Assembly (NCBI GenBank): GCA_947624655.1
Contig: CANQLH010000007.1
Span: forward strand, 1-64,000
Length of the DNA: 64,000 nt
Origin: an uncultured Clostridia bacterium
GTDB taxonomy: Bacteria > Bacillota > Clostridia > TANB77 > CAG-508
Direction of reading: 5' to 3'
This document shows positions 2,496 to 60,017 of this stretch, piece after piece. The position numbers and the translations under genes are program-made. The first letter of the stretch is position 1. Every line of letters begins with the position of its first letter. The notes beneath the pieces are model-generated. The model did not search any database and was not told the origin of the DNA. It saw only the letters and a program-made list of their open reading frames with translations.

Positions 2496-5400
2496 ATGAT
2501 ACAAATTAAAAAGAGAAACGGTATTTTAGTACCCTTTGATAAGCAACGTATTATTGATGCTATAAATAACGCTTTTGTCGAAGTTGATGGAACTCTGTAT
2601 GAAGATGAAACAGCTTAGGACATTGCGGATGAGATTGCCTATAAACTTGCTCATACAGATGAAATAAAATCTGTTGAAGACATTCAAGACTGGGTGGAAG
2701 ATTTCTTAATGCAATCTGAGCGTCGTGATGTTGCTAAATCCTATGTAAGATATAGATATAAAAGAGAAGTTGCTCGTAAGGGTGGAGACGACTTCTTGAG
2801 AGCTTATTCCCAAAAGATTAATGCAGAAGATATTGAGAATCAAAACGCCAATGTGGATGAACTTTCATTCGGTGGACGTGTAGGCGCAGGTTCTGACCTT
2901 ATGATGAAACAATATGCCTTAGATTATTGTGTCTCTAGCATGGCCCGCCGCAATCACCTAAACAACGAGATATATATTCACGACTTATCTGCTTATGCAG
3001 TTGGTACACACAACTGTTTATCTATTCCTTTTGATGATTTGCTCGCTAAAGGATTTAATACAAGACAGACGGACGTGCGGCCAGCTGGCTCTGTGAATAC
3101 CGCTTTCCAGCTTGTTGCCGTTATTTTTCAGCTACAAAGTCTCCAACAATTTGGTGGAGTAAGTGCTACGCATCTTGATTGGACAATGGTTTCCTATGTG
3201 CGAAAGAGCTTTTATAAACACTTGATGGATGGATATAGATACTTTGAAGGAATTGAAAACCCTCGTAGTATTATGTATCAAGGTACTGCGGAAGATTTTT
3301 GGACGCAGTATGTTGGAATCGGAGATAAAGACTTAAGAGCAGCACATCCGCAAGCCTATAATTATGCAATGGAGCAGACTGAAAGAGAAGTCCATCAGGC
3401 GGTAGAAGGTTTATATCACAATCTTAATACACTCTAGAGTCGTAGCGGTAATCAATTGCCATTCACGTCAATCAACTATGGCACTTGCACTCTTCCAGAG
3501 GGTAGAATGATTACAAATGCGCTTCTTGATGTTTCTATCGAAGGTCTTGGTAAATTACATAAAACAAGCATCTTCCCATGCGGGATTTTCCAGTGCATGA
3601 AGGGCGTTAACCGCAAACCTGGCGACCCTAACTATGACTTATTCAGAAAGGCTTTACGCAGTACAGCTACTCGTCTGTATCCTAACTATGCGAATGTAGA
3701 CTGGAGTGGTAATGCAGGATATGACATTAATGACCCTTGCACGTACTTTAGTACCATGGGTAAGCGTAAACTACAGCCCATGTAAAACCTTTTGAACCTC
3801 GCCCGAGGGTGTGCGAATTTCCAAAATTTGGAAATCGCGCTAACGGCTAGATCCCACGTGGATGAGGCCGTGCTAAGTAACTTAACAAAAATTTTTGGAC
3901 GAACTAAGATAAACAACCTTTCACAGTTCTTATATACTATGTAAGGGTGCGGCACCCTTAATATTTATCAACAAGGAGCATATGCCATGTTTATCTATAA
4001 GATTACTAATACAGTGAATAACAAGGTCTATATAGGCCAAACCATTAGACCCGTAGAAGATAGATTCGCAAGACATATAAACGATGCGATGAATTGTAAG
4101 TTAGACACCCATTTTGCTAGAGCTATTCGTCTTTATGGTCCAGACAAATTCCATATTGAAGTAATAGATACAGCTACTTCACAAGATGAATTAACATAGA
4201 AAGAACACGATTGGATTGTTCGCTATAACTCGGTTGAAGAGGGATATAACGAAACTGATGCAATCAGTAAATGTGGCGGAAATACTTACAAAAGTAAGAC
4301 AGACGAAGAAATGCAAGCTATTAAAGAAAAGATAAGGGACAGTAAATTAGGAGGAAGGAATCCACATGCCTCCAAGATAAAATGCAAGAATGTAGAAACA
4401 GGCAAGGAGTATTTCTTTGATAGCATGGCCGATGGTGAAAGATTTTTCAAGGCTACTAATCATCAATTCATAAGTCGAAGATGTCGTGGCGAAGTAACTA
4501 ACCTATATGAAGGTAAGTGGATGTTTGCATATCAAGACCAAGAATATGGGCAATATTCAGCAATTCCAAATGCTAAACGAGCTAAGCGAGTAGAAGTTAT
4601 AAATACTGACACTGGCGAACGCATAATCTGTAACACTGGAAATGAAGCAGATAGATATTGCGGATTTGGAATTGGCTATACATCGAAAAAACTCAAAGGT
4701 GAATGTAAACAGTTCACACGCAATTAGTATCAAGTAAGTTTGTTAAGTTAAAAGTGTATCGACTATCCCTGATGAATGTAAGGGAGTAGGACCGGAGATA
4801 GGCACCGGTCCGAAGCGGAAGGCTATCAAAAGATAGATGATATAGTCAGTACCAATGGCAACATTGGATAATATGTGTAGAACTGCTAATGGATGGGATA
4901 TAAATGGATTGGGCCAACGTAAAGATGGCCGTGGAAATATCTGTCCTGTAACCATCATTCTTCCTACTCTTGCTATGGAAGCAACAGAGAAGTATGCAAA
5001 TTGCGATTATTATGACGCTAGAGATGGTATTGCTTCTTTTATGGACTTACTCGACCAGAAAATCCATGAAGCTAAAGATATGCTGCTTGAACGTTTTGAA
5101 TATATTTGCGCGCAGCCGGCTGGTAGTGCAAAATTCATGTATGAGAATGGCCTAATGGCTGGCTATGATGGTAAGACCACTCGTAGTGCATTACAACATG
5201 GTACTCTAGCTCTTGGCCAGCTTGGACTTGCTGAGTGTTTACAAATTCTTATTGGTAAAGACCATACTACTCCTGAAGGTATGGAACTTGCGAAGAGAAT
5301 CGAGCAACTCTTTAAGACTCGCTGTGCAGAGTTCAAAGAGCAATATAAGTTGAACTTTGGTGTTTATTATACTCCAGCCGAGAATCTCTGCTATACTGCT

Positions 5401-5859
5401 ATGAAGGCTTTTAAGAAGAAGTATGGAGAGATTCCTAATGTCTCTGATAGAGACTACTTTACTAATTCCATACATGTACCGGTGTGGCATCAAATTTCTC
5501 CATTTGATAAGATTGACATTGAGAGTCAATTAACTGGATATAGTTCTGCTGGCTGCATTACCTATGTTGAACTTCCTAGCGGAATGAAGAATAATATTGA
5601 CGCGCTTGAGATTCTTGTCAACTATGCAATGGACCATGATGTGCCATATTTTGCGATTAATGTCCCATCAGATACTTGCCTTGAGTGTGGATATACTGAT
5701 GAATTTAACGACCATTGCCCAATCTGTGGGAGCAAGAATATCCAGCAGCTAAGAAGAGTTACTGGCTATCTTACTGGTAACTATAAAACAGCTTTTAATT
5801 ATGGTAAAGTTAAAGAAACAGAAGATAGAGTAAAGCACGTAGGAGTGTTAGAGGAATGA
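2496..5859 (+). CDS. nrdD: Anaerobic ribonucleoside-triphosphate reductase, split by a group I intron
   Basis: Two exons, 2496-3761 and 4876-5859, join in frame to a protein of 749 residues. The N-terminus is an ATP-cone (IQIKKRNGILVPFDKQRI). The body has NLNTL-QSRSGNQLPFTSINYGT and CTYFSTMG. After the splice comes CRTANGWDINGLGQRKDGRGN. The C-terminus has the zinc site CLECGYTDEFNDHCPICG and the glycyl-radical loop RRVTGYLTGNYKTAFNYGK. It reduces NTPs to dNTPs without oxygen, using the radical made by NrdG, which is encoded 180 bases downstream. In-frame TAG codons at 2616 and 3435 are read as Gln. Stop is TGA. It implies an anaerobic host. Confidence 0.93.
3762..4875 (+). ncRNA. Group I self-splicing intron inside nrdD
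   Basis: The 1,114-base insert interrupts nrdD between the codons for MG and CRTANG. The 5' exon ends ATGGGT, and the internal guide GCCCAT at 3776-3781 pairs with all six bases, including the expected U-G wobble at the splice site (P1). The intron ends in G at 4875. Near the 3' end GACTAT (4761-4766) and ATAGTC (4842-4847) can form P7, flanking a CCCT/AGGG P8-like hairpin. GGACCGG/CCGGTCC forms a P9-type stem. A nuclease gene occupies 3987-4751, in a position compatible with the P6 loop. T4 nrdD also contains a group I intron (sunY). Confidence 0.9.
3987..4751 (+). CDS. Intron-encoded GIY-YIG homing endonuclease
   Basis: 254 residues if the TAG codons at 4197 and 4725 are read as Gln. The N-terminal nuclease domain starts MFIYKITNTVNNKVYIGQT and continues RFARHINDAM, LYGPDKFHIEVID and EHDWIVRYNS. 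The rest (about residues 110-254) looks like repeated NUMOD-type DNA-binding modules, for example VETGKEYFFDSMADGERFF and NTDTGERIICNTGNEADRY. An AAGGAG site precedes the ATG. It should cut intron-less nrdD alleles and so copy the intron. The TAA at 4749-4751 lies just before the 3' part of the ribozyme core. Confidence 0.88.
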
Positions 5860-12527: not shown

Positions 12528-13132
<605 letters not shown>

Positions 13133-13187
13133 TTGTATCACCTCTATTGTTATATGAAAAATTGGGAATTTTAGTTATCAAATTTTA

Positions 13188-13292: not shown

Positions 13293-13478
13293 TTATACAT
13301 ATTTTTTATCTTCAGGAGCATTAAAAAATTCTGCACAATTTAGAGCTTTTTGTTGCCATAAACGATTTATTTGCTATGTCTCAGGAAGCTCCATCTCATG
13401 CCGCCGCATCGCCTTTCGGCAGAATGGCAAATTAAGGAGCTATCTGCCCCCCGCTGGAATTACCTGGTATTTGTTCAT
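13293..13478 (-). CDS. Small hypothetical protein, possibly truncated
   Basis: 61 residues if two TAG codons are Gln, starting MNKYQVIPAGGR and ending LNCAEFFNAPEDKKYV, with an AGGAG site 8 bases upstream. After the TAA the same frame continues with coding-like sequence (SVEETLKTLVGINS) to a second TAA. The first TAA may therefore be a mutated TAG (Gln) codon. The 5' half is GC-rich like the fibre gene upstream, while the 3' half is AT-rich like the rest of the phage. No family recognised. It could be a fibre-associated protein. Confidence 0.5.
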
Positions 13479-13560
13479 GTTGTATATCTCCTGTTTCTTT
13501 TTCCGGGGCCGCCCATGGAGACGGCCCCATCTCGTTTACCTCTCAGGTATCAAACTATCC

Positions 13561-14263
13561 TCACCCGATATGCCCGACGTGCCACTCTGTGAACCCCCGC
13601 ATGCCGATATGCTCATACGCCCATTGGATTATGTCTTCGGTCATTGTGACAGCTAATTTGCCTTCAACTACGACTGTCTGCAAAGGATGAGCCACGGTTA
13701 ACCCATCGGCATCCGTCATATCACAAATAACAATTGGGAAACCATCTTCGTCATATAGGTGGTTAAAATCTATGTCAAAATACACCACTTCAACTTCCGT
13801 CATACATTGTGTCCCAATGAGATCTCTGAACGCCAGATTGTGGAAATACATTCTCGGTCCGCTCAGATTGAACGGGTCTCTGCTGACGCGAACGATACAC
13901 GGCGGATTTGGGCCAGTGCCGTCTGGAAATCCCTGATAGTCCGGAGCAGCATAGTCAAATGTAATATCTCCATAATCGCCCTTGGGAAAATAAAATGGGG
14001 CCTCCCAGGGGTATTTCATATTGGAAGGTATCTCCTTACCAGCGGAGGATGCCATCCCAGTAATCTCAAACCACGGCAGATACAGCGGCCCCGCAGGCTT
14101 TTGTGTGAACGGCCCGTCCGGCTCGAACCACCCCCTGACCGCTCTTGAACAGTTCCTCCGCCCCCGCCTGTATGCGCGGGTCCAGGCTCACCGTCCCGCA
14201 AGTCTCCGGCTTCACCGGCGTCGGCTTTGACCCGTTTGAATACATGATAGGATTAAAAATCAT
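13561..14263 (-). CDS. Tail-fibre-associated protein, frameshifted in a G-run
   Basis: Two frames join at a run of five G at 14131-14135 (complement). The first part (from ATG 14263) is MIFNPIMYSNGSKPTPVKPETCG up to EELFKSGQG. The second is WFEPDGPFTQKPAGPLYLPW and onward through TFDYAAPDYQGFPDGTGPNPP to the end at TGA 13561. Both halves read like one protein of about 234 residues, so a one-base insertion or sequencing error is likely; a real +1 shift cannot be excluded. GC content is far above the rest of the phage and there is no TAG. It overlaps the end of the fibre gene upstream. Confidence 0.7.
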
Positions 14264-14930
14264 CTCGCCCACCGCCTTTCGGTGTCAACTGCGTGTTGAC
14301 GTAGAGCGTGATGGCCTTTTCCGGCACAGTCTCGCACCGGAATTTTACCGAGCCCTGGAGCTGCCCGATGAGCATGATACCGGCGGCGGCGTAGGCGTCC
14401 ATGTCCGCGCCGTCATCGTCGCCATCGAAACAGGCCCGGACCTCCTGCTTCGGGTCGGTAGTGACGTGACTGGCGCTCACCATCTGTACCTTGTCTTTCC
14501 AGCCCTCCACCGTGAGGGTAACAGTGTCCGAGTGCGGAAGGTACTTGTCCACGTACTCCTTGGAAACGTAGTCCACGTCCCTCACCGCCAGCGCCGCGTG
14601 CTCCCCGTCGCCCTTCAAAAGCCCGCTCATCGTCGTCTTGGTGCTGGTGGAAATTTCATTCGGTCCCGCCGGTCCGACAGCACCCGGCGACCCGTCCTTA
14701 CCGTTGGACCCTGCAGGCCCCTTGATGTTCACATTCTGGGACGGCTCGCCGGCGTTCTTCGCCCAGCTGATAACGCCCTCCTCGGAGACGGTAGGGACCC
14801 ACGTGTCTCCCGGCGCACCCGCGGGGCCCGTCAGTTCGCCACTATTTAGCTTCTCTTGGAAAGTCTCGCCGTCCGCAAATTTTACTTCCGAAGCTGTGGG
14901 CTTCTAACCTTGCAAAATAGCTTTTATCAT
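14253..14930 (-). CDS. Collagen-like tail fibre protein
   Basis: 225 residues. The start MIKAILQGQKPTASEVKFADGE is in phage-like AT-rich DNA and contains the only TAG (codon 9, Gln). The rest is GC-rich and has collagen-type Gly-x-y tracts (GPAGAPGD, IKGPAGSNGKDG, GAVGPAGP), then a beta-rich C-terminal part (SDTVTLTVEGWKDKVQMV, EKAITLYVNTQL). Trimeric fibre proteins with such tracts form host-recognition spikes. A matching N-terminal MPKAIL is found in the divergent DGR target gene, which suggests a shared virion-attachment end. Confidence 0.78.
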
Positions 14931-15238
14931 CGTGTTTTCACTCCTTTTAAATCTTTAAAAAAGTACACTTTAACGAACTTGGGCAACCACAGATAATTTA
15001 TCTGTGGGCTTTTTTATATTTATTTGAAAAGAGTAAGATACTCAACTGTTGGGGAAGGAGTTTCTATACTCTTTTCCCAATTTTTTATTAATTCCGAAAA
15101 AGTATTTCCCCATTCTAAAAAGTGTACTTTTCCTCGGAAAGTATTAAGGGAGTTCTAAAACTTAGAGAGTGATAGCCTCCATCCTCTGTCGCATCTATGA
15201 AATAACTTCCTTCGTACTATGGAAAAGGAGGTTTAATA
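14931..15238. promoter_or_regulatory. Divergent intergenic region with a 13-bp inverted repeat
   Basis: The 308 bases between two divergent fibre genes hold AAAAGTACACTTT (14959-14971) and its exact reverse complement (15119-15131), 147 bases apart. Each arm also contains a near-palindrome AAGTnnACTT. Between them is a terminator-like hairpin (14987-15014) and AT-rich sequence with only weak promoter matches (for example TATACT at 15066). Candidate roles are two operator copies or the arms of an invertible promoter, with a serine recombinase gene 1.8 kb away. Confidence 0.5.
14987..15014 (+). terminator. Intrinsic terminator in the leader of the DGR operon
   Basis: CCACAGATA (14987-14995) and TATCTGTGG (14999-15007) form a 9-bp stem with a 3-base loop, followed by GCTTTTTT on the plus strand. 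No plus-strand gene ends just upstream, so it either protects the region from read-through or acts as an attenuator. On the minus strand it lacks a U-run. Confidence 0.72.
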
Positions 15239-17230
15239 ATGCCAAAAGCTATTTTAACTGAGCAAGGCGGCAAGGGCGGCGGAGAAGGCTTTACCCTTAT
15301 CAAAATAGAAATTACTAACTAGCCATCTAAAACGAGTTATCTTGCGGGCGACGCTTTCCAGACTGCTGGAATGGAAGTAACTGCATCTTACGGCATCAAT
15401 GGCGTTGTTGTAGCAACCGCTCCTGTTACAAGCTATACTTGTAACCCCACGACATTGAGAGACGGTGATACTAAAGTCGTTGTCACATACAGCGAACTTG
15501 GTGTTACTCGTACCGCAGAAGTCAAGGTTACTGTTACCCACAAGCTCACTAGCATTACTTGTACTGACCCTACTAAGAAGACCTATGAGTATGGCGATAC
15601 ATTACAGACTGGTGGCTGTGTAGTAACTGCTCATTATTCTGATAATAAAACTACTACCGTCACTGGTCAGTTTAGCCCAACTAACTTAACTACAATTGGA
15701 ACTCAGAAGATTACAGTTACATATACAGAAAATCAAGTCACCCAGACCACTTCTTTCAATGTAACTATTGAGAGAAAGAGAGTCGCAAAGCCTACATGGA
15801 AGGGTACTCTGACCTACAATGGTGCAGTACAGTATTGTACCAATGCGTCATTATGGAACAACTATAATGCTACATATATGACCATGGCTGGAGTAACAAG
15901 TGGTACAGATGCTAAAGACTACGGAGCAACCTTTACTCCGCAAGCCAACTACCAGTGGGCCGATAGTACTACTACCCAGATTACTGTCAACTGGACTATC
16001 GCTAGATAGGCTATCGCAACCCAGCCTACATGGAAGGCTAATATCACCTATGATGGCACCGCTAAAACGGTCACCGCAACCACCTATTGGAATAACTACG
16101 ATACAACAAAGATGACTATTGGTGGTACTACTACCGGTACTAATGCCAATTCTTATCCTGCCACATTTACTCCAACATCCAACTATTGCTGGACTGACGG
16201 TTCTACGACAGCTATTACTGTCAATTGGACCATCTCTAAAGCGGCTGGTAGTCTAACACCTACAACACAGACTATCAATTTATCTGCTTCTGCTTTGACT
16301 GGCACAGTAACGTATGATAAGCACGGTAGTACTGGTGCGTTGAGTAATAGTACTCTTGCGGGCACTACAATTACTTGGGCTGGCAATGCCGTGACTGTAA
16401 AAGGCGATGGTTCAACCGCTATCGCTGGTAAGACAATTACAATTACCATGGCTGCTGATACCAACCATACTCAAGCAACAGCAACTATTACTGTCAATGC
16501 AACGTATTGGAGTTGGGGTGCTGGCACTGGTGAAGCTGCGGACGCCACTTGGTTTACAGGACTTAAAAACTATCTTGCTAGCCACACAGGAGCTAGTATA
16601 AAGACAAGTAGTAATGGAAATATTATTGGCACGACTAAGACTGTAACGTTGACGAGTCCCGTGTTAGGAACTACGGCTCATAGAATCAGAGTTATTGACG
16701 TAGATAGAGATGGTACTAATACCGTCACTTTCCAGACTGAAAATATGCTCACTGATTACTTAAATAATCAGTATGGTTCTTCCGCTGGTTTTGGTTCTAA
16801 TGCTAAATGGGAAGGTTCTAATGCTAAGTTAGCTTGTCAAGCCTACTATGCAGCTTTCCCAGGTAAGAGTACTATTAAAACAGTTACAAAACAAACAAAC
16901 AGTGAATATGATAAGGCTTCATTAGTAGAATCTAATGAGACCGTCTTCTTACCTTCTATCTTTGAAATGGGATTAGGCTCTTATACCTACGCTCCAAAAG
17001 CCGCAGAATATACTAAAGGTGTATCTACTGCTTATGCCTATTATGATAGTGATGCTAAGAGAGTAAAGAAGAAAGGCGATAGTGGTAACGCAGATTGGTA
17101 TTGGACTCGGTCCCGCTCCTCCTACTCCTCGGACTACGTGTGCAATGTCAGCAACAACGGGACAGCGAACACCTACTACTACTACTACACGACCGTTGGC
17201 CTCGCGCCCGCTTTCGTTATCGGAAATTAA
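15239..17230 (+). CDS. DGR target: Ig-like repeat protein with C-type-lectin-like variable domain
   Basis: 663 residues; two TAG=Gln codons (15320, 16007). The N-terminus MPKAILTEQGGKGGG resembles that of the divergent fibre. Residues about 30-135 hold Ig-like folds (LTSITCTDPTKKTYEYGDTL and YTENQVTQTTSFNVTIE). Two related repeats (KPTWKGTLTYNGAVQ, QPTWKANITYDGTAK) each end NWTI, and a third Ig-like unit follows. The last 200 residues look like the DUF6273/C-type-lectin fold: WFTGLKNYL, AHRIRVIDVD, ETVFLPSIFEMG, DWYWTRSRSS and GLAPAFVIGN. Its final 40 codons contain the variable repeat. It is probably a receptor-binding protein. Confidence 0.9.
17107..17210 (+). repeat. DGR variable repeat (VR)
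   Basis: 104 bases at the 3' end of the target gene, aligned without gaps to the template at 17833-17936. There are 16 differences, and every one is at a position that is A in the template. Thirteen codons are changed, mostly AAC to TAC, TCC, GAC, ACC or AGC. The 3' end GGCCTCGCGCCCG is identical in both and GC-rich, as expected of an initiation-of-mutagenic-homing site. Confidence 0.97.
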
Positions 17231-17248
17231 CTGCAAATTCATTCTTTA

Positions 17249-17271
17249 GGACAATAGCAATTAAATTGTCC
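17249..17271 (+). repeat. Hairpin 38 bases after the VR
   Basis: GGACAAT (17249-17255) and ATTGTCC (17265-17271) form a 7-bp stem with a 9-base loop just after the target gene. DGRs such as that of phage BPP-1 need a hairpin or cruciform near the end of the VR for efficient retrohoming. The one here is further away, so the match in function is a guess. Confidence 0.55.
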
Positions 17272-17307
17272 AGCAGAAAATTTTATATAAAGTGAGGAAA
17301 ATTTCTT

Positions 17308-17802
17308 ATGTCAGTCAAAAGAAAAGATAGGCACGTTTCAAAAAATGCCTCCCTCGGTAAATCGCGCGAACTAATGGATTATATTTTAATACTAACACGT
17401 CCTAGAGAATTTGATAAGGATGGAAACCAAATTCAAAGACCCGGCTTGCTTGGAGAGGGACAACCTCTCCAGGCTTTCGGGCTGGACTTGATTAAATGCG
17501 GCAAGCAGATTCATGCGTGTTGCTATGATGCTAGTTAGATAAATCTTAAAGATAGAGCAACATTGGATGAACGCAACCGATTGCATCAAGAAGCTTTAAG
17601 ATACGTTAGAAGTATATTCAGACAAATAGACTTGTGCATCAACCAGTATGCTAAGAATAACAAGAAGAAAAGGGGTTCCTTTGAACACCTTGCGCGTTTA
17701 AACTATCAACTTAAAGAGACGATTGAAGACCGCATCAATCGAGATAATTTAATCTTCAAACACGAATACTCTGCATCCAGGTCATTCCGCAGAGGTAGAT
17801 AA
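17308..17802 (+). CDS. avd: Accessory variability determinant (Avd-like)
   Basis: 164 residues with one TAG=Gln at 17536-17538. It is basic and almost wholly helical: SLGKSRELMDYILILTRP near the start, LDERNRLHQEALRYVRSIFRQIDLCIN in the middle and LARLNYQLKETIEDRI at the end, which fits the four-helix bundle of Avd. Avd binds the DGR reverse transcriptase and the template RNA and is needed for mutagenic cDNA synthesis. The place between VR and TR is the classical one. The SD is weak (GTGAGGAAA). Confidence 0.87.
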
Positions 17803-17832
17803 AATGACTGGTTGGTTAAGTTCTGTAAACCG

Positions 17833-17936
17833 TCGGTCCCGCAACTCCAACAACTCGAACAACGTGTGCAATGTCAACAACAACGGGACAGCGAACAACA
17901 ACAACTACAACAACACGAACAATGGCCTCGCGCCCG
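17833..17936 (+). ncRNA. DGR template repeat (TR)
   Basis: 104 bases paired with the VR at 17107-17210. It is made mostly of AAC and AAT codons, which lets A-targeted mutation reach many amino acids and never a stop. The RNA copied from here is reverse-transcribed with errors at A and the cDNA replaces the VR. The TR lies inside a short open frame (17804-17998) in the same register as the VR, a relic of its origin or chance. Confidence 0.95.
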
Positions 17937-18274
17937 ATTAGATGGAGCTATCACGTTACGAGCTAAGTGGCGAAGCCACGCCAGCGAGTAACACCTAATA
18001 GTACCCCAGAATATATTATTATCCATCTATCACGGTTATTCTGGACTGCACTTGGGCCTTGTTAGCCCAGGGAAGAGAAGCAAAAGTAAAGAAGAAACCA
18101 AAGGAGCCGTATGGTTCCCAATAATTACATCGAATAATATATTATAGGTAGATATGCCTTTTCATCTAAGGAGAACTTAACCATTTCGTTAGATTAATGG
18201 ATAAAATTAATAAGCGTGTAGATGCGGCGCCCGCGCGGCCGACCGCTAGAACTGCACATTAAGGAGAAAGATGA
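17937..18274 (+). ncRNA. Structured spacer between TR and reverse transcriptase
   Basis: This gene-free stretch contains several hairpins: GTGGC-GAA-GCCAC (17967-17979), a long stem closed by CCAGAAT (18006-18012) and ATTCTGG (18038-18044), and TGGGC/GCCCA (18053-18069). In studied DGRs the RNA downstream of the TR folds and primes cDNA synthesis, so these probably belong to the DGR RNA. A tiny open frame at 18197-18262 (21 residues, GC-rich end) has its AAGGAG 20 bases away and is not called. AAGGAG at 18261 serves the RT gene. Confidence 0.68.
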
Positions 18275-19483
18275 ATGGATAAGATGGAATCATCTTTCGA
18301 GCGTTTTTGTAGTTTTGACGCTTTCTATGATGCGTCTTATAGAGTTTGCAGAAATGTTCGATGGAAAGATAGTACAATAATTTTTGAAGAGAATAGGATA
18401 GAAACAATCTTAAAGACAGAAAATGACCTGCGAATGAGTGAATACTTACAATTCGTCTTTAGCTGTTTCTCGATAATTGAACGTGGCAAACCCAGAGATA
18501 TAAGAGCGTGTCATATAAAAGACAGGTTGGTACAGAACTCTCTATGTGAGGAAGTTCTGCTACCTGAAATAACTCCCAAATTTGTTTATGATAATTGTGC
18601 AACCTTGAAAGGCAAAGGTATTGACTTTGCGGTTAAAAGATTTAAGTACCATATGCAAAAGGCTTTAAGGACCTATAAAGGTAGAGATTATTTCTGCCTA
18701 CGAATCGACATACGTAAATACTTCGATTCGATAGACCATGAATCCTTAAAGCGTACTGCTCGTCTTGTTATTAGAGACGACAGAATCTATGCGCTTGTTG
18801 CTTATATTATTGATACCTTCGAGTTTAAGCTAACTAAAGACAAATATCCTCTCCCAAATAAGACTTATTATACAGCTAAAGAAAAGAAGTATAAGGTCTA
18901 TCATGGAAAGACCTTTGACCCAAATAAGCAATACTTTGAGAATAGCAATAAAAGTTTGGGATTGGGTAGCCAAACATCTCAGTTATTAGCTTTGTTAACT
19001 CTTAATGAGATAGACCATTTCATCAAAGAACATCTACATATTAAGTTTTATGGTCGTTATATGGATGACTTGTATCTAATATGTGATGATAGTAAATACT
19101 TAGAATATTGTAGGAAGGAGATAGAGATAAAGTTGAATCAGATTGGACTATCTATGAATTGCAAGAAGACTACTATTACTCGCATCCACCCAATCAAGAA
19201 AGACGAATCTCGTCAAACTCCTATTAAATATCTAAAGTGGAACTTCTATATAACCGAAACTGGTCATATTATTATGCTTCCATTTGCGAAGAAGAAAGCT
19301 CACGAAAGAAGAAAGTTGCGGAAAATGCAAGCTCTATGGCTTGAGGGTAAAATCTCTACTGAGGAAGTTCAGAAGAGCTATTAGGGCTGGCGTGCGCATA
19401 TTAAGAAAGGCACAACACATTATGTTATCCAAGACATGGATAACTATTTTAGGCATTTATTTAAGGGAGTTGAAATAAAATAA
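18275..19483 (+). CDS. DGR reverse transcriptase
   Basis: 402 residues with one TAG=Gln at 19382-19384. Motif order: IKDRLVQNSLCEEVLLPEI, then LRIDIRKYFDSIDHESL with the first catalytic Asp (motif A), then GLGSQTSQLLALLTLNEID (the GxxxSQ form that marks DGR-type enzymes), then FYGRYMDDLYLICDD with the catalytic YMDD. The C-terminal part (KYLKWNFYITETGHIIMLP) is the thumb. It makes A-mutagenised cDNA from the TR RNA. The TAA overlaps the ATG of the next gene (TAATG), which indicates coupling. Confidence 0.95.
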
Positions 19484-20145
19484 TGTATATTTTAGTTAAT
19501 CGTGACAACATTGTTGTCGATATTTTATCAGAAGTACGTTATATTAAACTGCAATCCTCAAACGGTATTACTGTCGCCTGCGAGGAAGATGAAGGAACTG
19601 GGGTTATCGGTTCTGACTGCGATACACATTATGTATTAATTAAGGCCGATACTGTTAGCTCTCCAAACGCTGTACGCGTAGTGGAGATGGATGAGATTCC
19701 ATCTAATGCCAAGCCTAACCTTTGGAAGCTAGATAACGAGACTGGTACTCTCGTATATCGTTATACGCTTGAAGAAGCTCAGGCTATGAAACAAGAGAAA
19801 AACAAGATATTATTCGCGGAATATCTTGAATCCCACCCTCTGACATGGGTCGATGGAAAAGAATATGGCGTTTCCGAAGCAGACCAATCTGAGATTAGTC
19901 TAAATCTTAACCAATATCAGATTGCTATCTCAGCGGGTGTTGAAACGCCTACATTGGAATGGCACGCACGACATGAAGAGTGCAAGCCATGGAGCTTAGA
20001 GCAGTTGGCGGCTCTCAGCTTAAAGATTTCAGAGGCGGTATATCCTAAATACCATCAAATGCAGCAATATAAGACAGAGATTTATGGTTGCACTACCGTC
20101 GAAGAAGTAGAAGCAATAGAACTCAATTATGAAGACGCTGAATAA
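19483..20145 (+). CDS. DUF4376-like tail/fibre-associated protein
   Basis: 220 residues without TAG. An N-terminal beta domain (MYILVNRDNIVVDILSEVRYI, CDTHYVLIKADTVSSPNAV) is followed by a helical part (YTLEEAQAMKQEKNKILFAEYLESHPL) and a C-terminal unit LEWHARHEECKPWSLEQLAALSLKISEAVYP ending TTVEEVEAIELNYEDAE. The last unit resembles DUF4376, seen in small proteins encoded beside tail fibres. Here it probably helps assemble or attach the DGR-diversified protein. The ATG overlaps the RT stop. Confidence 0.68.
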   Translation: MYILVNRDNIVVDILSEVRYIKLQSSNGITVACEEDEGTGVIGSDCDTHYVLIKADTVSSPNAVRVVEMDEIPSNAKPNLWKLDNETGTLVYRYTLEEAQAMKQEKNKILFAEYLESHPLTWVDGKEYGVSEADQSEISLNLNQYQIAISAGVETPTLEWHARHEECKPWSLEQLAALSLKISEAVYPKYHQMQQYKTEIYGCTTVEEVEAIELNYEDAE

Positions 20146-57247: not shown

Positions 57248-58299
57248 TCTGTCTCACCTCTTTTCTTATTACGACACTTTTTACATATACTATAAAAGTT
57301 GTCTTTACTTGTCTTATTCTTTGAAAAGAAGTTGTTATGGGCTGGCTTTAATTGCCCACATCTTGAACATTTTTTCATAGGTAATTTCTAAACTCTATAT
57401 TGCCAAATAATAAAATCATCCTTGGCCTGTTGAGCGATTACTCTAGGAATCTTGTTCCTCCATAAGCTAGAAATATATTCTATACTATACGTCTTATTAA
57501 ATTCTTTTTCCAAGATTTGTTGTATCTCTGCATTTTGCTTTCTATCTATCTTAAGCTCGACAATACGCATATAGATAGGGAAGTCCGCGAGTGCTTTATC
57601 GCATACTGTCTCAAAATCTTGAATTAAATACCAAACATCTCCATTAAACTAATCATAACTATCTTCTTTTAATTTAGAATAATTGCATAAAATAGCCGAT
57701 ACAACTCTTGGGTCCATTAAAGAAATACCTTTAATGTTCACATCTTCATTATCTTGTAATTCACTATCATCATCAAGAGGTATATGAAAATCATTAGACC
57801 TATTAATGTTCATGCAAATAGCTGGTTTTTGATACGCTTGTTTAATAACATATTGGTCTTTACGCATTTCAATTAAACCCTTTTTGATGATAAATGCATC
57901 TCTCCCTGAAGCCTTTTTCAAGGCTGCCTCCCAGGACTAAATAGCTTCTCTTAATTGCTTTAAAAATGGTATAGTATCTAAATCATGCTAAGTAATTGAT
58001 ATTTTTGGCTAAAAAATTGTATGTTTATTATCTGTAATTAAATTATAAATTCCATCTTCGCCATTTTCCAGTTGGCTAGCAAGTCCTTCAAAAGAGGTTT
58101 CTCGTTTGTTGACCGTCATCATACGGTTCTCAGTTAATATTTTGCGCTCTTTTCGTTCTTGCTTTTCCATACATAGAACTAAATAATCAGCCAAGATTTC
58201 TAAATATCTAGGTGTTAAGTTATCATTTTCTTCGATTATTTTTTCTACGAGGGCCTTGCGTTCTTCGGGAGATTCAATAGTATAATCTAATTTAATCAC
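57244..58299 (-). CDS. First gene of the virion region: helical protein with C-terminal zinc ribbon
   Basis: 351 residues in one frame across several TAG=Gln codons. It starts MIKLDYTIESPEERKALVEKIIEENDNLTPRYLEILADYLV and contains TENRMMTVNKRETSFEGLASQLENGEDGIYNLI and SGRDAFIIKKGLIEMRKDQYVIKQAYQKP. A short coiled part follows, and the last 45 residues form a ribbon CSRCGQLKPAHNNFF then CKKCRNKKRG. The stop overlaps the next ATG (ATGA). Related proteins in Firmicute phages have DNA-binding-type features. It is a candidate regulator or packaging cofactor, first behind the divergent promoter. Confidence 0.7.
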
Positions 58300-59014: not shown

Positions 59015-59762
59015 TATAGAGAAAGCAAAAGCACACATTGCAGATGTGAATAAGCGTTTTCCTGAGCAGATAGCTAGCTCCATAGCTGGCACACGGATAT
59101 ATAGAGGCGCGGGACCTTCGGTTGATAGCGGAGATAATTCTAGTCACGTAAGACTGATTCAGGCAGATAGTGTCTCTTGCTTGATGGAACTTGATGAAAG
59201 CGAATTTGGCAATATCTGCGTATTGAATTATGCGTCTTATAAGTATCCAGGAGGCATGTTTTTGCTAGGTTCTATGTCTCAAGAAGAAGCATTATGCCAT
59301 GAATCTACATTATATCCAGTACTTAAAGCGTTTGATGATTCTTACTATCAAGATAACAGGAGTTATTTAAATAGAGCTTTATATACCAATGCGGCATTGC
59401 TTAGTCCAGATATTATCTTCGAGCATGATGGTCAGACCAAGATGGCCAATGTATTGACCTGCGCTGCTCCTAACTGGGGAACTGCTAATTTGTATCGCCA
59501 TGTATCAAAAGCAGAGAATGATAAGGTGTTTCAAGATAGAATTAACTTTATTTTCAAGATTTTGAAATTTGAAAATATTGATACATTAATTGCGGGAGCC
59601 TGGGGTTGTGGCGTATTCGAACAAGATGCCAAGGACACTTGTAAAATGTTCTTAAATGCGAAAAATCTCCCCGCAAATCTTATCTTTGCTATTCCTGGAG
59701 ATTACCATTATAATAAGTTTGAAGAAGTGTGCGACGAATTTTACCGTACACACTATATTTGA
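59007..59762 (+). CDS. PARG-type poly/mono(ADP-ribose) glycohydrolase (TIGR02452-like)
   Basis: 251 residues. The macrodomain-type catalytic signature is present: YASYKYPGGMFLLGSMSQEEALCHESTLYPVL, where the GG-x-QEE motif holds the catalytic Glu pair. Preceding it is HVRLIQADSVSCLME and following it MANVLTCAAPNWGTAN and TLIAGAWGCGVFEQDAKDTCKMF. It should remove ADP-ribose from modified proteins, DNA or RNA in the host cytoplasm. In a phage this may reverse ADP-ribosylation used in host defence or clean up NAD signals. Stop is TGA. No TAG. Confidence 0.85.
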   Translation: MTNIEKAKAHIADVNKRFPEQIASSIAGTRIYRGAGPSVDSGDNSSHVRLIQADSVSCLMELDESEFGNICVLNYASYKYPGGMFLLGSMSQEEALCHESTLYPVLKAFDDSYYQDNRSYLNRALYTNAALLSPDIIFEHDGQTKMANVLTCAAPNWGTANLYRHVSKAENDKVFQDRINFIFKILKFENIDTLIAGAWGCGVFEQDAKDTCKMFLNAKNLPANLIFAIPGDYHYNKFEEVCDEFYRTHYI

Positions 59763-59822
59763 AAATTGTGACAAGTCTAATGGTCACTTTTGCCCAAAAA
59801 CATAAAAAAGGAGAACAGCAAT

Positions 59823-60017
59823 ATGAATGAAAATCAGCAAGAAATGATAACAAGTGGTTATGTAGATTATAAAAGTACTTGTAACGATTATGGCGGCACA
59901 TTAACCGTTACCTCTAACGACGACACTGAGGAGATTCAGCGTCTCCGCAAGAAAATCCGCAAGCTCAAGAAGAAGAACAAGAAACTCAAGAGAAGGTTGG
60001 AGCTTTATGAACTATAA
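59823..60017 (+). CDS. Small basic coiled-coil protein
   Basis: 64 residues: MNENQQEMITSGYVDYKST at the start and a C-terminal Lys/Arg-rich helix IQRLRKKIRKLKKKNKKLKRRLELYEL with leucine-type heptads. AAGGAG lies 9 bases upstream. It overlaps the next gene by 11 bases. It could dimerise and bind nucleic acid; no family recognised. Confidence 0.72.
   Translation: MNENQQEMITSGYVDYKSTCNDYGGTLTVTSNDDTEEIQRLRKKIRKLKKKNKKLKRRLELYEL

Follow-up and report, generated by a model that had tools for sequence, protein, structure and literature searches.

Does a locus with a large Ig-like protein, a pair of direct repeats and a reverse transcriptase (RT) represent a complete diversity-generating retroelement (DGR), and is this DGR still working in a phage that appears to read TAG as glutamine? 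The question was raised by a part of the window, by which we mean the whole analysed stretch of DNA of 64,000 nucleotides. Our answer is that the locus holds a complete and very probably active DGR. It contains the following features:

15239-17230, plus strand: DGR target gene, 663 aa with TAG read as Gln; Big_3 Ig-like domains at the N-terminus and DUF6273 at the C-terminus; TAG at codons 28 and 257
17107-17210, plus strand: variable repeat (VR); the match to the template repeat (TR) reaches 17214
17197-17214, plus strand: IMH-like invariant 3' end of the VR; its CTTT terminus is kept in relatives
17308-17802, plus strand: Avd-like accessory protein of 164 aa, predicted to fold into a four-helix bundle; contains TAG at codon 77
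17833-17936, plus strand: TR, 38 A in 104 bases; the match reaches 17940
17923-17940, plus strand: IMH*-like 3' end of the TR, terminating in GATTA
17955-17992, plus strand: RNA hairpin 3' of the TR, 13 pairs, seven of them changed on both sides across four lineages
18275-19483, plus strand: DGR RT, 402 aa; TAG at codon 370
18965-18982, plus strand: RT motif GSQTSQ (GxxxSQ of DGRs); the last Gln is coded by TAG in L004, L005 and L008
19058-19069, plus strand: RT catalytic motif YMDD
19483-20145, plus strand: weakly DUF4376-like gene, 220 aa, overlapping the RT stop codon

The gene coordinates confirmed the order of target, Avd-like gene, TR and RT on a single strand, which is canonical for DGRs and had been claimed in the preliminary description. 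The VR is located inside the protein-coding target, and the TR is non-coding and lies between the Avd-like gene and the RT gene. The RT carries YMDD and LGSQTSQ, corresponding to the YxDD and [ILV]GxxxSQ motifs of DGR-type RTs. With a profile search against PDB, its best match was the RT of the BPP-1 DGR (8ub7_A, E 1e-44), followed by a group II RT (2e-22). Compared with the other aligned DGR RTs, it has an additional segment of about 40 aa ahead of GxxxSQ.

The protein encoded between VR and TR had no sequence match in Pfam, NCBIfam or PDB, so the predicted fold was used instead. Modelling gave a four-helix bundle with high confidence (mean pLDDT 90). It matched the S23-family four-helix bundles 2rld (Z 15.5) and 2gsc (Z 15.3), and also a chain of a DGR ribonucleoprotein, 8ub7_B, with Z 12.7; values near 13 are common among helical bundles and only moderately specific, so the Avd name rests on fold and position. 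From these two features the protein can be called Avd-like.

Realignment of TR and VR, which are direct repeats 726 bases apart, reproduced the gapless 104-base alignment of the preliminary description, including its claim that all 16 differences are at A of the TR. As the TR has 38 A among its 104 bases, 16 random differences would all hit A with a probability of about 8e-9. The similarity continues four bases further in the 3' direction, where the TR reads GATTA and the VR reads GCTTT, and adds two differences, both at template A. Thus the total including the IMH end is 18 differences, all at template A, and none of the 68 non-A positions is altered over the extended match of 108 bases. The end difference of ATTA in the TR and CTTT in the VR is shared by L002, L003 and L005-L007, which argues for an IMH* versus IMH marker rather than random mutagenesis; an invariant 3' segment of the kind expected in DGRs is therefore present in the window and in these five relatives. 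All 16 changes within the 104 bases affect the first or second base of an AAC or AAT codon. Substitutions at these positions never give a stop codon, so re-randomisation of the VR makes no stops there. After the VR, we also found by eye an inverted repeat (GGACAAT/ATTGTCC), which was not seen in L005; the BPP-1 DGR has a DNA hairpin just downstream of its VR. Taken together, the RT motifs, the match to BPP-1 RT, the Avd-like fold and the TR/VR asymmetry support the earlier claim of a complete DGR.

The DGR genes contain in-frame TAG codons in the target (codons 28 and 257), the Avd-like gene (codon 77) and the RT gene (codon 370), the last of which is CAA in L002 and L021. In the RT alignment, TAG is often found at Gln columns that are read as CAA or CAG elsewhere, and invariant Gln columns are TAG in relatives. 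The reading of TAG as Gln is well supported by its presence at conserved Gln columns, and the recoded phage proposed from the window holds on this ground. TAG occurs in most late genes, and the minus-strand late genes are richer in TAG than the DGR genes. The RT genes of L004, L005 and L008 have seven to 19 in-frame TAG codons, among them the Gln of GxxxSQ. No suppressor tRNA was found on the contig or in the loci of the relatives, which cover part of the genome.

The target is an Ig-repeat protein as described before, with two Big_3 Ig-like stretches towards the N-terminus and a DUF6273 domain at residues 517-661 (E 6e-11) that covers the VR. Faecalibacterium phages are known to have DGR targets with a DUF6273 domain that holds the VR at its C-terminus (PMC11792537), and a DUF6273 domain has been modelled as C-lectin-like (PMC10743442). 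This gives indirect support to the lectin-like ligand face at which the preliminary description placed the mutated codons, in a putative C-lectin-type domain at the tip of the target. The architecture of Tentaclins, proteins mutated by DGRs that combine a C-lectin with Ig domains, the C-lectin being N-terminal and followed by the Ig-like domains, was not found here: the target has Ig-like domains first and DUF6273 with the VR at the C-terminus. AlphaFold prediction of the whole target, with five sequences, gave mostly pLDDT <50 in the C-terminal domain, a low confidence at which residues are not placeable.

The target gene is located outside the minus-strand cluster of structural genes; that the protein belongs to the virion, as a receptor- or surface-binding protein, is therefore what we infer. 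The same location also fits another role. It is possible, though we consider it rather unlikely, that the DGR works on a protein other than a receptor-binding tail fibre, either a Hoc-like decoration of capsid or tail that binds mucus or surfaces, or a protein that is released or otherwise displayed. Ig-like repeats are a typical feature of such decorations, as discussed for phage Mushu (PMC11792537). Against this, the homologous target of L005 starts with a phage tail-fibre repeat near its N-terminus, a weak match below the curated cut-off (E 4.5e-4). This alternative bears on the role of the target and not on the identity of the cassette as a DGR, and we keep the receptor- or surface-binding protein of the virion as our reading.

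The same cassette order was found, within the reach of each contig, in eight IMG/VR contigs and one contig of a metagenomic bin, with RTs 55-71% identical. Three of them, L005, L006 and L007, share a 130-base TR and, outside the VR, differ by at most one base in about 8.5 kb, whereas their VRs have 15-16 differing positions, all at template A. Between L002 and L003 there are 15 differences in 4.2 kb, and every one is within the VR. In the 136 kb contig of L006, different VR alleles lie close to the two ends; over the 264 bases by which these ends overlap there are 14 differences, each of them within the VR and at template A. Two VR alleles likewise form the ends of the 144 kb contig of L002. 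These two contigs carry two alleles at their ends because the assembly broke in the VR. Contig edges at the VR were found in other relatives as well: L001 begins inside the VR, L004 ends in it, and L021 (149 kb) begins at its end. Such repeated breaks would be expected of a population with many VR alleles.

The preliminary description had called the system working-looking. The VR allele turnover in close relatives strengthened this claim, and is evidence of the sort that the preliminary description had sought from reads mapped to the VR, though it comes from cousins. Activity in the window phage itself is what we infer; its own VR was assembled as a single allele. Could the DGR have been active formerly and now be silent in this phage, with the VR differences recording past retrohoming only? 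The single allele would agree with it, and broken DGR remnants have been reported in other phage groups (PMC11054128), but RT, Avd-like gene and TR are intact, the non-A positions of the repeats show no drift, and close relatives display current VR turnover; we regard a silent system as improbable. An ordinary duplication whose copies drifted apart through point mutation or selection would account for the direct repeats, as would an artefact of assembly, in either case without retrohoming. Both are practically refuted by the A-only differences, whose probability by chance is given above, and by a TR/VR asymmetry that recurs at this position beside a DGR-type RT in independent assemblies of several lineages.

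In a working DGR of this type, the RT and the Avd-like protein would copy the TR transcript, which includes the conserved hairpin on its 3' side, into cDNA, and random bases would enter the cDNA opposite template A. Retrohoming would then re-randomise up to 17 AAY codons near the C-terminus of the target, making no stops there. The product would be an elongated protein of Ig-like domains with a DUF6273 domain of C-lectin type at its tip.

In four lineages, the hairpin (17955-17992 in the window) lies 10-12 bases after GATTAGAT at the end of the TR. In the alignment of these lineages, 98% of cells are paired and 7 of the 13 pairs show compensatory changes. A shorter hairpin is present at the corresponding place in L005 and L008. 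No Rfam family was found in the window, hairpin included, and the hairpin model R1 had no copies among more distant DGR loci. In BPP-1, the spacer belongs to the RNA held by RT and Avd. By analogy to this spacer, the hairpin 3' of the TR is probably part of the RNA bound by RT and the Avd-like protein.

One TR may serve more than one target in this lineage. A second VR was found in the contigs of L021 (G098:C177, gene at 57358-57972, VR at 57.8 kb) and L002 (G096:C1, gene at 59227-59922, VR at 59.7 kb); both contigs begin at the cassette. Each second VR is in a gene for a protein of about 200 aa and matches the 3' 85-87 bases of the same TR, with all differences at template A. The window's contig ends in sequence homologous to the region near 50 kb of the L021 contig, which would put the equivalent second VR site about 7-8 kb past the contig end. 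Within the 68,403-base contig and the remainder of the bin, no third copy of the repeat and no further VR was detected. Searches with the TR/VR pattern, A being a wildcard, gave no same phage strain in IMG/VR and no real match among 95 genomes related to the bin, and there was no near-identical DNA among GenBank phages.

The weakly DUF4376-like gene is directly 3' of the RT gene in all six lineages compared. Among 2.9 million viral contigs of IMG/VR, only the eight that have this cassette yielded relatives of it at the sensitivity used. As a general DGR accessory it was rejected, because the one occurrence outside this lineage is a weak match next to the L014 RT (E 3e-4). As a guess, the protein may be a helper of the virion or tail fibre.

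Other neighbours in the window were also observed. At 2496-5859, NrdD is encoded in two pieces, the ORFs 2496-3785 and 4837-5859. Between them lies a gene for a GIY-YIG homing endonuclease (3987-4751), which suggests an intron. The region 13400-15000, between a resolvase gene (12617-13141, minus strand) and the target, has raised G+C (0.49-0.59) and includes a collagen-like ORF on the minus strand (14253-14930). The gap between resolvase and target is only about 340 bases in L003.

Among the matches listed, the closest TerL belongs to a 12-kb uncultured phage fragment (59%), followed by those of large Enterococcus, Geobacillus and Alicyclobacillus phages and phAss-1. About two dozen ORFs of the window have counterparts in phAss-1, with 23-58% identity (mostly 30-47%). 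phAss-1 is also TAG-recoded and has homologous TerL, portal, tape measure, NrdD and DNA polymerase (PMC10607447). By protein similarity, the window phage is a distant relative of phAss-1 in a different genus. In contrast to the window phage, phAss-1 has no detectable match of RT, Avd or target, and it has its own suppressor tRNA genes; no DGR is mentioned in the phAss-1 paper. A crAss-like origin was unsupported, as the listed TerL matches are phages of Bacillota, phAss-1 or unnamed phages. The contig sits in a bacterial bin of 1.87 Mb, a membership that does not establish the host.

Several known systems resemble this cassette. The BPP-1 DGR (mtd-avd-TR-brt) has the same order and strand and the same A-specific change from TR to VR; its RT is the best PDB match, and the Avd-like protein has a predicted four-helix fold as well. 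Differently from BPP-1, the window has a target with Ig-like domains and DUF6273 instead of Mtd, the extra segment of about 40 aa in the RT, genes with TAG as Gln, and a conserved extra gene after the RT. Faecalibacterium phages Pioen, Roos, Taranis and Lelie likewise have DUF6273 targets with the VR at the C-terminus (PMC11792537), and proteins of Pioen, Roos and Taranis match aa 183 to 485-498 of the window target; however, these phages are prophages of about 50 kb, and the RTs of Lelie and Toutatis are only about 28% identical. Zeta crAss-like phages are also recoded gut phages with DGRs, some with internal amber codons in RT genes, but they probably belong to a phage order other than that of the window phage, and Avd was reported in only two of them (PMC12386605); the window TerL, unlike theirs, is related to phages of Bacillota. 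The kind of DGR is thus already known, and what seems to be new, as far as the searches reach, is a DGR in this recoded phage lineage.

Because the target, the Avd-like protein and the RT all contain TAG (up to 19 in cousin RTs, including the Gln of GxxxSQ), one can speculate that hypermutation is gated by the code switch. Diversification would begin only once amber readthrough is efficient, so that variants would arise late in infection, on genomes soon to be packaged; in this lineage, a single TR would supply two targets separated by about 60 kb. We consider this a doubtful idea.

Recoding hides DGRs of this type. With the standard code, the target and the Avd-like gene break at TAG, and a cousin RT stops at or before its own signature motif, so annotation by the standard code would miss the RTs of L004, L005 and L008. 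The cousin contigs with two alleles suggest that assembly breaks at the VR may be a cheap sign of current DGR activity, and the covarying hairpin beside the TR offers a concrete RNA element for testing. It means that a DGR is now added to a group of recoded phages, distant relatives of phAss-1, whose describing paper reports none.
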